Part shown: positions 13,386-22,443 of the stretch, in pieces
Numbering within the stretch: position 1 is the stretch's first letter
Layout of the letters: every line of letters begins with the position of its first letter
Origin: a virus
Length of the DNA: 34,653 nucleotides
Direction: 5' to 3' (one strand)
IMG/VR virus record: IMGVR_UViG_3300038701_001883
Span: 1 to 34,653 of that record
The notes under the pieces: generated by a model
What the model was told of the DNA's origin: nothing
What the model saw: the letters and a program-made list of their open reading frames with translations, nothing else
Database searches by the model: none
Made by a program: the position numbers and the translations under genes

Positions 13386-14291
13386 ATGAGAACTTTAAAT
13401 ATAACTACAGGTATAAATATACTAAAAAACAATAAAAAGAGAATTGGGGCGATTTCTATAGCTATTATGATCGGTATTTTATCTATGAACTATACAAACA
13501 ATATCGAAATAGAAAAAGCAAAAGCACAAATGTTACTAGACGAGGCAGAAAATACATTAATAGAAAATAAAGAAATAATCTATTTTAACCAAGAAGCCGT
13601 AGAAAGTAACCAAAAAATAGAAGATCTTAGCTTAGAACTAAAATTTTTACATAGTGAATTATCGGAAACTACTACATATAACGAATGCGTAGAAGCCCAA
13701 TTAGATAGACTGGCTACAGGTATGGAAGTAGATTTAGAATATTGCGAAACTAAACAAGAAAGTTTTACAGAGGAAGTAAGCGAGGAACCTAAAAAAGAAA
13801 CCAATAGGGACATAGACGCCCCTATTAAAAACCATATCGCCGAACCTAGCAAAATGGTAGGAGACGAATACGTAATAGAAAAAACAATGGAGTTTTTAAG
13901 ACACCACGAAGGCGTTAGATATACGGCGTATTGGGACGTAAAACAATATAGTATTTGTTATGGTACGAGATCCGTAAAAGGAGCTACAGCAAATAAAGAA
14001 GAGTGCGAAAAAATATTAAGGGAAAGAGTGCAAAGCGAACTTTTAAGAATAAATAGACTTGGGGACAATTTACCAGCAAATAAGAAAGTAGCTTTAATAT
14101 CATTTTTCTACAACGTAGGTTATAAAATCGAGATCTTAAATTATGCAAGAAAAGGCGACGACGCCAGCGTAGTTTATCTTATGAGTTTATACAATAAAGC
14201 CGGCGGGAAATATTTACCAGGACTACAAAAAAGAAGAAACGCAGAAATAGCAGTATATAAAAACGAAAATGCTTTGACTTTTGCGAAATAA
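13386..14291 (+). CDS. Membrane-anchored GH24 lysozyme (endolysin)
   Basis: 301 residues, no UGA. Residues 19-37 form one hydrophobic segment after a basic N terminus. Residues 40-110 are coiled coil, and 120-160 are an acidic linker. The GH24 domain follows: HHEGVRYTAYWD gives E175 and D184 at the usual nine-residue spacing, then QYSICYGTRS where the family normally has a catalytic Thr. The Thr position is Ser189 with one residue fewer in the turn, while T194 lies downstream. The end GLQKRRNAEIAVY is the classic GLxxRRxxE. The anchor suggests a signal-arrest-release or wall-tethered enzyme that cuts peptidoglycan. Confidence 0.85.
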   Translation: MRTLNITTGINILKNNKKRIGAISIAIMIGILSMNYTNNIEIEKAKAQMLLDEAENTLIENKEIIYFNQEAVESNQKIEDLSLELKFLHSELSETTTYNECVEAQLDRLATGMEVDLEYCETKQESFTEEVSEEPKKETNRDIDAPIKNHIAEPSKMVGDEYVIEKTMEFLRHHEGVRYTAYWDVKQYSICYGTRSVKGATANKEECEKILRERVQSELLRINRLGDNLPANKKVALISFFYNVGYKIEILNYARKGDDASVVYLMSLYNKAGGKYLPGLQKRRNAEIAVYKNENALTFAK

Positions 14292-14408: not shown

Positions 14409-14461
14409 ACGTCTACGTTTTCCCGATACCAGTAAAACGATAAAAAAAGTAATAAAAAAAC

Positions 14462-14489
14462 TGGACAAAAGAAATAAAATAAATAGAAT
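14462..14489 (+). promoter_or_regulatory. Promoter P2 of the early region
   Basis: TGGACA (14462-14467) and TAGAAT (14484-14489), spacer 16, follow an A-rich stretch resembling an UP element. The block AAAGTAATAAAAAAACTGGACA is almost identical at P3 (21273). P2 follows a terminator and precedes the recombination and early genes, so it is likely an early promoter read by the host sigma70 RNA polymerase. Confidence 0.75.
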
Positions 14490-14507: not shown

Positions 14508-14563
14508 ACGGCAAAAAATAATATACAAATACCGGGACTTCTTAAATACAAACAACTTTTAGC
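14508..14563 (+). repeat. Conserved leader of P2 (copy 1)
   Basis: Three blocks recur in order after P3: ACGGCAAA (14508 and 21318), ACTTCTTAAATACAAA (14537 and 21335) and AACTTTTAGC (14554 and 21356). The sequence between them differs, so the blocks appear selected. They lie in the 5' leader of the transcript. A repressor site, a processing site or a translation signal could explain them. Confidence 0.6.
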
Positions 14564-16636: not shown

Positions 16637-16876
16637 ATGGTAAAAATTGACTTAAACGACAAAACTCTAACGCAGTTTCTAAAATTACACGGTTTCGGGT
16701 GGGATATTTTAGAGGAAAATAAAGTAGTAAGTAATAGAACTTATTACCGTATGATAAAAGGGGAACACACCCCTAGAAAATCTACGATCAAAAAAATAAC
16801 TACATTTTTAAAGATCGACGAAAAAACATTTTTAAAGCTTTTAGAAAACGAAATAGAAGCTAGAAAAAACAAATAA
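16637..16876 (+). CDS. XRE-type helix-turn-helix regulator
   Basis: 79 residues. Residues 10-65 (LTQFLKLHGFGW, NRTYYRMIKGEHTPRKSTIK, ITTFLKIDEKTF) follow the five-helix Cro/CI pattern, with the recognition helix near NRTYYRMIKGE. It is small and has no dimerisation domain, so it resembles Cro more than CI. With no integrase in the genome it probably regulates early promoters; the palindrome at 13197 and the leader blocks at P2 and P3 are candidate targets. Confidence 0.7.
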   Translation: MVKIDLNDKTLTQFLKLHGFGWDILEENKVVSNRTYYRMIKGEHTPRKSTIKKITTFLKIDEKTFLKLLENEIEARKNK

Positions 16877-16901: not shown

Positions 16902-17624
16902 ATGGTAGATACAATAGCAATAGCTCTAGGAGCTGGTTACTTATTTTTAGCTATATTACTTATTATTTCGGCGGTAAGATATGAAAACCTAAAGGAAGAT
17001 AATACAAAACTAGAAGAATTTAGAGGAGAACTATTAGCGATACACGCTTACGTATTTTGATCTAGGGACTATAAGCCAGGTAAAATACTAGCTAAATTAA
17101 AAAGAAGAGACGACGACGTACAAAGAATGGTAAGACAGGTAGAAAATGCTACGTACAATATCGAGGATCTTACAGACGAAGAAAGACAAAAACTTACTTG
17201 GAGCCAAACTATTAGAGATATAGCTAGCCAAAAAAAGAGCCACGATAGAGTAGAACACCTAGAAGAAAATCACAAAGCAGAGACTTTAGATATGAAGGAA
17301 ACTATAGACTTTATCAAAACAGAAGCTAGAAAAGATAAAAAAATAGATCGTTTATTAAGACAAGGTAAAGCGTTATATAGTTTAGTTATTTTAAAAATGC
17401 AGGAAGGGGCAGGAATACAAAAGGATTTTGATAGTTATATAGAAGGAGTAAAAGAAACTTTAGAGGGGAAAGATAAAATTATAAATGCAAATTCTGTAAA
17501 GATCAAAACTTTAGAAAATAGAGTACACTCGAAAGACCAACAAATACACGATATTAGAAAAAAACATAATATCCCAGTACCAAAGAAAAGAAAAAAAACT
17601 AGACAAAGCACTAAAAAGAAATAG
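16902..17624 (+). CDS. Membrane-anchored coiled-coil protein with basic tail
   Basis: 240 residues, UGA-Gly at 17058. Residues 4-25 (TIAIALGAGYLFLAILLIIS) are a single membrane segment. Residues 28-45 and 75-215 are charged coiled coil. The last 25 residues are strongly basic (PVPKKRKKTRQSTKKK), suited to nucleic acid. The combination recalls proteins that tether phage DNA replication to the membrane, such as phi29 p16.7, but no homology is claimed. It directly precedes the leader of the replication initiator. Confidence 0.7.
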
Positions 17625-17642
17625 ACTAAATCTACAAAAAAA

Positions 17643-17726
17643 ATTTGCTGGGGAGCGATTTTTCTATATACTATTGGCACAAATAGTAGGTAAAAGCTCC
17701 CCAGCAGATCACCTACTATTTTTTTT
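17643..17726 (+). promoter_or_regulatory. Pseudoknot or attenuator with terminator before the replication initiator
   Basis: Segment A (17643-17656, core GCTGGGGAGC) pairs over 14 positions with A' (17696-17709, core GCTCCCCAGC). B TACTATT (17669-17675) pairs with B' AATAGTA (17682-17688) inside that stem. But B' extended (17682-17691, AATAGTAGGT) also pairs perfectly with C ACCTACTATT (17711-17720), which leads into a run of T to 17726. So B' can form the inner hairpin or a terminator. A-A' and B'-C together would be an H-type pseudoknot. The initiator ATG follows at 17738. Confidence 0.75.
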
Positions 17727-17737
17727 ATCCAAAATTT

Positions 17738-18535
17738 ATGAAAATAAAGAAAGAGAATATAAATTTTACGCAGGTAAGTAACGAACTTTTGTTAGATAAA
17801 AGAGTATCAGCAAAAGCCAAAGGGATATATGCTTATTTATACAGTAGACCCGATGACTGGGACTTTAGCGTAGATCGTATAGCCAACGATTTTAAAGACG
17901 GTTACAAGGCAATAAATGGAGGTATCAAAGAATTAGAGGAACTGGGATACATCGCAAGGGAAAAACAAACTAACGGTAGAAATTATTATTATATATATCA
18001 GAAACCGCAGAAGAAAGCCCAACCCGCCAAAACGGCAAGTAGACAAAAAGGCAACCAGCCAAAAAGTCTACCAGGCGAAAAGGGGGGTATAAGTAATAAA
18101 GATAATATAAATAATACTGATATAGAAATAATAAAGAAAGATACTAAAGTATCAGAGGTTAAAACCTCTAGCGATACTGAAATAGAAAAAGTAGAAGAAT
18201 TTGGAAACCCTATAGTAAATGAAATAGAGACAGCTATAAAAGAAGCTTGTACAGAAATAGGAGTTTTATATATACCAGGAGAAAAGGAAAGACAAGTTTT
18301 ATGGAATTTATGACGTAGCAAAGTTATAAAAGAAATTGTCGAAAAAAGAAAAGAGTTAGAAAGTGTGCCGGATTTTATTTATAAAACTATCGTTTTATCA
18401 AAACAAGACGACTTTTGGAATTGAAAATTATTTAACGGAAAAACCTTTAAAGATAATTACGGAAAATTTCTAAATAGTTTTAAAGGAAAAAAGGAAGCGG
18501 ATTTAAAACCTAAAAAAGTAACTACCTATGGATAA
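17738..18535 (+). CDS. Replication initiator-like protein (winged helix, HTH_36 type)
   Basis: 265 residues, UGA-Gly at 18311 and 18422. Residues 10-75 (FTQVSNELLLDKRVSAKAKG, YLYSRPDDWDFSVDRIANDF, KELEELGYIAREK) are the winged helix common to phage replication initiators of the lambda O/DnaD kind. Residues 90-160 are a disordered linker. The C-terminal part (DDFWN[G]KLFNGKTFKDNYGKFL) resembles the DnaD-type tail. It probably binds the origin and loads host helicase, since the phage has no visible helicase or polymerase. Its leader carries the switch-like structure at 17643. Confidence 0.75.
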
Positions 18536-19393: not shown

Positions 19394-19927
19394 ATGGACG
19401 AAGCTAAAAAAATCGGGATCCTGGAGGACGCCGGTAAAATTATATCAGAGGAAGAAAAAAAAGCCCTGGATATATTAGAAATTGATACAGAAATAAACGG
19501 ACACCATACGGAGTTTAAATTTAAAAAAGCCGTATTAGATAATAATTTTATTTGGGAACTTACCTTAGAAGTAAAAAGCTTGCCTAGAAGAGTAAACCTA
19601 AATTATCAATTACATTTAGTTTTAGATCCTACAAATTTTAATATAGCTTTAAACTCTCAATATGAAGAGTTAAAAAAGAACCAATTAGAGTTACCGGATC
19701 CAAAGAAAAAAACACCATACCAGGAAATGGAGCGTATCCATAAAGAATATGAAAAAGAGCGTAAAATGGTATGAGACTTTACCTTTCAAGCTAGCTTATC
19801 ACAGCTAACAAATAAGCAAACAGAGACACTACATTTTATTGTATCCGGAGAAGTTGTTAGAGAATTTGAAAAATTACAATCACTAGGAGGATTACACCGT
19901 ATGGCTTTAGCATTAGAAACTATATAA
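19394..19927 (+). CDS. Hypothetical early protein
   Basis: 177 residues, UGA-Gly at 19772 joining two parts. The first part is an alpha/beta domain (HTEFKFKKAVLDNNFIWELT) with a Lys/Glu-rich linker near 110-125. The second part (FTFQASLSQLTNKQTETLHF, SLGGLHRMALALETI) is helical and continues smoothly after UGA. No family is recognised. Confidence 0.7.
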
Positions 19928-21029: not shown

Positions 21030-21257
21030 ATGTTTGGACAAATATATAAATTTACCGAAGAACATACGGAAGGATATATAACCTTTAGTAAAGGTGCTAG
21101 GGTAATTTTGGTACATAGAGACTCTAAATACGAACACCAGTTTATTTGTGCCTGGACAAGAGGTATAATTAAATTTCCTAATAACATTTTTAATAAACTT
21201 GAATTAACGGCAGATCATAGCAGATATTTTAAGCATACGTTAGAAAAGTTTAAATAA
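21030..21257 (+). CDS. Hypothetical small protein
   Basis: 75 residues, beta-rich start (FGQIYKFTEEHTEGYITFSK) and basic throughout. No family is recognised. Last gene of the P2 unit, immediately before promoter P3. Confidence 0.6.
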   Translation: MFGQIYKFTEEHTEGYITFSKGARVILVHRDSKYEHQFICAWTRGIIKFPNNIFNKLELTADHSRYFKHTLEKFK

Positions 21258-21272
21258 AAGTAATAAAAAAAC

Positions 21273-21300
21273 TGGACAAAGATAAATAAAAGAATATAAT
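21273..21300 (+). promoter_or_regulatory. Promoter P3
   Basis: TGGACA (21273-21278) and a perfect TATAAT (21295-21300) are 16 bases apart. The upstream AAAAGTAATAAAAAAAC is the same as at P2. It drives the 68-residue protein, the HNH protein, the structured RNA region and the SMC-like ATPase operon. Confidence 0.8.
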
Positions 21301-21317: not shown

Positions 21318-21365
21318 ACGGCAAAGCGTTCGTTACTTCTTAAATACAAATATTTAACTTTTAGC
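21318..21365 (+). repeat. Conserved leader of P3 (copy 2)
   Basis: Second copy of the ordered blocks ACGGCAAA (21318-21325), ACTTCTTAAATACAAA (21335-21350) and AACTTTTAGC (21356-21365). The last block also appears before the ATG at 22444 without the others. Confidence 0.6.
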
Positions 21366-22410: not shown

Positions 22411-22443
22411 GTAAAATATTTTAAACTTTAACTTTTAGCTACA

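Follow-up and report, generated by a model that had tools for sequence, protein, structure and literature searches.

A putative transcription attenuator, conserved in a distant relative, upstream of the replication initiator gene of a tailed phage

The initiator locus, its virus and its relative

The window analysed here is the whole record IMGVR_UViG_3300038701_001883 (34,653 bp), which derives from a tailed phage and carries all main genes on its plus strand. A relative contig (L003) is continuous across both ends of the record (positions 1 and 34653), and the record is therefore probably circularly permuted and near complete. At the locus considered here (Table 1), five pairing arms (A to E) followed by a T run precede the gene of a replication initiator. 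The initiator protein matches PF13730 (HTH_36) at 34.2 bits (cutoff 25), as well as replication initiation and DnaD-like families of PHROGs (E-values down to 1e-18).

Table 1. Features of the initiator locus (window coordinates; G003 is the syntenic relative described in the text)
Feature	Position	Strand	Description
Small XRE-like HTH gene	16637..16876	+	Lies two genes upstream, with a conserved counterpart in G003; best Pfam match in either phage HTH_3, below cutoff
Predicted early-phage-type promoter	17582..17627	+	A-rich tract, -35 TAGACA (17600-17605), 16-bp spacer, -10 TAGACT (17622-17627)
Arm A (TTGCT-GGGG-AGCGA)	17645..17658	+	5' arm of stem P1 (which reaches 17643-17656), putative antiterminator; alternatively folds alone with a GGGG loop
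Arm B (ATATACTATT)	17666..17675	+	Forms helix P1.1 with arm C inside P1; repeats TACTATT of arm E
Arm C (AAATAGTAGGT)	17681..17691	+	Partner of B in the read-through state and of E in the terminated state
Arm D (AGCTCCCCAGCAGAT)	17695..17709	+	Pairs with A as 3' arm of P1 (17696-17709); in the terminated state falls within the loop of the terminator, and GCT-CCCC-AGC can then self-fold
Arm E and T run (ACCTACTATTTTTTTT)	17711..17726	+	3' arm of the predicted intrinsic terminator; among the plus-strand terminator-like sites
Replication initiator gene, HTH_36 domain	17738..18535	+	265 aa under code 25; putatively controlled gene
AT-rich tract, candidate origin	18089..18116	+	Inside the initiator gene; 28/28 identical to G003 (17466)

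A search of viral contigs with the pattern of stem P1 returned a single true relative, the syntenic phage G003 (35,975 bp), in which the element occupies the same place, before a homologous initiator. When viral contigs were searched with the initiator, the exonuclease, the protein at the RecT position, the terminase and the capsid, the region was found only in G003, other matches being fragments with structural genes, and the RecT-position protein had no relatives among species genomes. The stem pattern also gave 17 matches in species genomes, approximately the number expected by chance from a rough count; their titles correspond to unrelated hosts, the element is absent from the four that were inspected, and these candidates were rejected. 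Likewise, four further contigs found with the terminator-arm pattern contain ordinary terminators only. When the element was compared with phages and plasmids by Blast, only short stretches matched, mostly of the part comprising the terminator and the U run.

Under translation table 11, in-frame TGA codons split many ORFs of the window. A first idea, that TGA encodes tryptophan, was rejected on the alignment with G003, in which TGAs lie opposite glycine codons. Among 16 window TGAs, eight face GGN codons and two face TGA, and in the reverse direction G003 TGAs face 11 GGN codons, two TGAs and five others, TGG being absent in both directions; Pfam scores did not discriminate between the two assignments. 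As the TGAs are opposite GGN and never TGG, the alignment points to code 25 (TGA = Gly) as the code of this virus. This code is used by Gracilibacteria, Absconditabacteria and many of their phages (PMC10746230), and the host is thus probably a member of one of these two groups. The initial annotation overlooked the use of code 25, as well as the upstream promoter, the presence of the element in a distant relative and the self-complementarity of the P1 arms. In addition, AGGA, GGAG and GAGG are absent from the 20 nt before each of 48 window gene starts, many of which are instead preceded by a T-rich sequence resembling TTAAC or TAATTTTTAT.

The promoter in Table 1 overlaps the 3' end of the upstream ORF, and its predicted transcript starts at about 17634. 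A long promoter sequence, AAAAAGTARTAAAAAAAC-TGGACA-N16-TATAAT, occurs twice per genome (window 14462 and 21273; G003 14192 and 19793). The corresponding spans (AAAAAGTARTAAAAAAACTGGACA-N16-TATAAT; window 14444-14489 and 21255-21300; G003 14174-14219 and 19775-19820) are nearly identical, and most of them stand before a gene block. With a matrix built from these four other promoters only, the site at window 17600 (TAGACA-N16-TAGACT) ranks third in the window with 17.8 bits, the next site scoring 5.6 bits. The homologous spot of G003 reads TAGACA-N16-TAACAT, with the same 16-bp spacing and a poor score on the full matrix. In both phages, predicted transcripts start a few nucleotides before arm A. 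Given the promoter match ending at 17627, the element would constitute the 5' untranslated leader (approximately 94 nt) of the initiator mRNA; transcripts that read through from the promoter at 14462 may traverse it as well. A different leader, CTTAAATACAAA ... ACTTTTAGC, is shared by the start-codon regions at window 14541-14563 and 21339-21365; ACTTTTAGC is also found at 22431, and this leader is absent from G003.

Pairing arms and their conservation

The 121-nt region has a folding energy of -32.1 kcal/mol, against -16.2 +/- 2.9 for shuffled sequences (z = -5.4). The 14-bp stem reported by the initial annotation (P1, 17643-17656 with 17696-17709) is indeed present, with 13 Watson-Crick pairs and one U-G pair (17645-17707), and it encloses helix P1.1 (17669-17675 with 17682-17688). 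The second complementarity, described as covering 17682-17691 and 17711-17720, is exact as claimed but extends further, to 11 pairs (17681-17691 with 17711-17721), and it runs into the T run, which consists of eight Ts (17719-17726). P1 and this 11-bp stem are mutually exclusive, as had been proposed. Relative to the ATG of the initiator gene, the stem ends 16 nt and the U run 11 nt upstream. Moreover, each P1 arm is self-complementary (GCT-GGGG-AGC and GCT-CCCC-AGC).

Such an arrangement is rare. We searched for terminator stems of at least 9 bp followed by a T run, whose loop contains at least 9 nt complementary to the sequence just upstream. One copy was found in the window and one in G003, at the homologous place, and none in 60 dinucleotide shuffles of the window (both strands). 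When 8 bp were allowed, one weak extra case appeared in G003 and five in the 60 window shuffles. Other plus-strand terminators of both phages include plain short-loop hairpins devoid of an antiterminator, and, with a model of the element, the window and G003 each gave one match and nine other records none.

All 57 aligned bases of arms A to E are identical between the window and G003 (A, 14/14; B, 8/8 at 17666-17673; C, 9/9 at 17683-17691; D, 11/11 at 17695-17705; E with the U run, 15/15 at 17711-17725), against 5 of the 24 linker bases (1/7, 3/9, 1/3 and 0/5, in order). The apical loop of G003 carries an 11-nt insertion able to form a small hairpin of its own, and the two outer pairs of arm C become G-U. 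As the arms are identical while the linkers have diverged and the initiator protein itself is only 46% identical at the amino acid level, selection appears to act on the pairing arms rather than on the linkers. P1 and the terminator stem differ between the two phages by one-sided changes only, P1 contains no compensatory change, and the sole double change, in B:C, falls in an alignment column that is uncertain; covariation between the two sequences thus lends no independent support to the pairings. The double use of A and D (each with itself or with the other) and of C (with B or with E) may explain why the aligned arm bases are unchanged.

A putative attenuator and its possible triggers

Two states of the leader can be compared. 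The read-through state (A:D with nested B:C) has a predicted energy of -31.8 kcal/mol in the window and -28.3 in G003. The terminated state (A self-folded as UUGCU-GGGG-AGCGA, C paired with E, and D self-folded as GCU-CCCC-AGC in the terminator loop) reaches -19.6 and -26.6, respectively, so that read-through is favoured by about 12 kcal/mol in the window. Folding of successive prefixes forms A first, then B:C, then A:D once position 17705 emerges, before E exists. In the nascent RNA, A would therefore fold on itself, B would pair with C, and the emerging D would pair with A and displace the hairpin of the latter. With A:D and B:C formed, C would be barred from E and the gene transcribed; since A:D is complete before E is made, we infer that read-through is the default (ON) state. 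If A were instead occupied or stabilised, D would be left free, C would pair with E, and the polymerase would be predicted to stop at the U run (OFF). A trans-acting factor on arm A, either RNA or protein, may set the switch and exert a negative feedback on replication.

We therefore consider it probable that the leader is a transcription attenuator, which reads through by default and terminates when its 5' arm is captured; this judgement applies to the attenuator itself and not to any given trigger. The initial annotation had proposed an attenuator before the replication initiator, and the putative promoter of its own, the exclusive stems, the distance of the terminator stem from the ATG and the conservation of the arms in a distant relative all agree with that proposal. 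Nevertheless, a single informative relative was found in the collection searched, the promoter and the terminator are both predictions (the promoter copy of G003 being a weak match), and termination in the window would need a strong trigger to overcome the bias towards read-through, whereas no trigger was found.

The alternative suggestion that both stems coexist in an H-type pseudoknot does not hold. The loop between D and E would have to cross 14 bp with 1 nt in the window and about 11 bp with 2 nt in G003, and, by the accepted geometry of pseudoknots, loops of 1-2 nt cannot span stems of 11-14 bp, so that the full pseudoknot is sterically excluded. A partial tertiary contact, for example between GGGG and CCCC, is possible.

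Ribosome flow and a ligand had also been put forward as triggers. As the stop codon of the upstream ORF (17624) precedes the predicted transcript start, its ribosomes would be absent from the leader RNA, and the only ORF within the leader (TTG at 17645) differs in length between the window (13 codons) and G003 (six codons), with no conserved leader peptide. These observations argue against control by ribosome flow. A metabolite is similarly disfavoured: Rfam gave no match at gathering scores and nothing relevant to the element at relaxed thresholds, and there is no conserved unpaired core of the kind sought in a riboswitch or T-box test, since linkers and apical loop differ between the window and G003.

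Two other explanations, a protein and an antisense RNA, are versions of the attenuator model that differ in the trigger only, so that the confidences given to them overlap with that of the model and do not sum to one. An RNA-binding protein may hold the arm A hairpin through its GGGG loop and thereby cause termination; this might be the product of the XRE-like HTH gene, the initiator or some host factor. Conservation of arm A and its flanking TT/GA to each base would suit such a protein, as would the nearby conserved small HTH gene (HTH_3 scores of 18.5 and 18.8 bits in the two phages, against a cutoff of 23). However, HTH_3 proteins usually bind DNA, no known RNA-binding family was recognised, and arms that each have two alternative partners also explain base-level conservation. 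We give this explanation a low probability.

Control by antisense RNA, as in pT181 and pIP501, appears somewhat less likely. A minus-strand counter-transcript over arms A to D would here release the terminator and set the copy number. The anatomy and the kind of gene are the same as in these plasmids (PMC5703833, PMC4981023), and on the minus strand, where P1 is followed by AAATTTTTTTT (eight Ts), no terminator-like site is stronger than this one, at which such an RNA would end. On the other hand, this U run is broken in G003 (AAGTTTTATTATG), and no minus-strand sigma70-like site of at least 9/12 was found in 17640-17960, none is common with G003 and none was detected by the phage-promoter matrix, although a promoter scan is unable to exclude one.

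We give a comparably low probability to an unregulated element, either a partial terminator or a stabilising 5' hairpin, that does no more than fix the level of initiator mRNA or give rise to a by-product RNA of 90 nt. Both the lack of a detected trigger and the much greater stability of the read-through state in the window are consistent with it, but a fixed set-point needs no conserved antiterminator arms, yet all five arms have been kept.

Two further readings are unlikely. In one, the terminated leader (approximately 90 nt), with its GGGG and CCCC loops exposed, would pair in trans via A or D with new leaders and cause their termination; if true, this would be a self-sensing dosage switch, in which the initiator gene counts its own transcripts with neither an antisense promoter nor a protein. 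In the other, which we find at least as doubtful, arms A and D would act as DNA, each as an operator (GCT-N4-AGC) bound by a dimeric repressor, at about +10 and +62 of the promoter, with RNA folding of secondary importance. Both arms are palindromic, and their centres are 49 bp apart in the window and 60 bp apart in G003, a difference close to one helical turn. This reading nevertheless does not account for why B, C and E are conserved, nor for the T run and the complementary GGGG/CCCC centres, and no further GCT-GGGG/CCCC-AGC copies exist in the window or in the G003 genome.

Finally, it is very improbable that the element is itself a replication origin (a hairpin origin or an initiator-binding site), an alternative that the initial annotation proposed to test by GC skew: inverted repeats do adjoin the initiator gene, but GC skew is positive throughout the window, with no minimum or change at the element, the region contains no iteron or other repeat array, and the strongest DNA-level conservation of the initiator gene lies inside the gene, in the tract 18089-18116, which ranks second in length among exact matches of the two genomes. 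As the Rep boxes of RepA_N plasmids occupy a central position in rep (PMC5703833), this tract may be a better origin candidate than the element.

Relation to known systems and significance

By mechanism, the systems that appear nearest to the putative attenuator are the rep-leader attenuators of pT181 and pIP501 and the CI RNA of phage P4. In pT181, the RNAI-controlled repC leader is untranslated and combines a terminator before the start codon with a pre-emptor and a default ON state (PMC5703833, PMC4878617). Similarly, the phage leader would be untranslated and has a predicted intrinsic terminator (C:E with T8) 11 nt before the ATG, and in both phages, as in pT181 and pIP501, pre-emptor pairing (A:D, B:C) excludes this terminator. 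Unlike in repC, no counter-transcript promoter was found, the arms are self-complementary, and the main antiterminator pairs with the loop of the terminator (A:D) in addition to its 5' arm (B:C); the likeness, between a phage and a plasmid, is one of mechanism rather than of demonstrated sequence homology.

The repR gene of pIP501 (controlled by RNAIII and CopR) provides another parallel, with attenuation in the rep leader and a small XRE HTH gene upstream of the initiator (PMC5703833, PMC4981023); the position of the XRE-like gene resembles that of copR (PMC5703833). However, the phage leader is about 100 nt long, against about 320 nt in related PriCT_1 plasmids, no antisense promoter was found, the HTH match is below the Pfam cutoff, and the initiator belongs to HTH_36. 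In P4, transcription of the replication genes ends prematurely in a leader that contains complementary segments, and the genes are thereby silenced (PMC4825925). A phage replication gene preceded by complementary segments and by predicted premature termination is also what we describe here, but in P4 a processed leader RNA acts on seqA and seqC, whereas A and D belong to one leader and neither processing nor an extra copy was found. Lastly, Rep proteins of the pPR9 type have an HTH_36 N-terminus, and leaders of the pSK41 type are RNA-controlled, an antisense RNA blocking translation (PMC5703833). The N-terminal domain of the phage initiator is of the same family (PF13730), but control in those plasmids is exerted on translation rather than transcription, and the likeness does not extend to demonstrated leader homology.

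The element thus has both the predicted terminator and the pre-emptor pairing that characterise the plasmid type; as a counter-transcript promoter was not found by scans that could miss one, we do not file it as a member of the pT181/pIP501 group. RNA attenuators that limit replication initiators are known chiefly from plasmids and satellite phage P4. A conserved attenuator here would carry RNA-based control of replication into the viruses of candidate-phylum bacteria that recode UGA, whose experimental biology is almost non-existent. Its short self-complementary arms constitute a compact and testable design, and a candidate sequence for the early promoters of these viruses emerges from the comparison of the window with G003.
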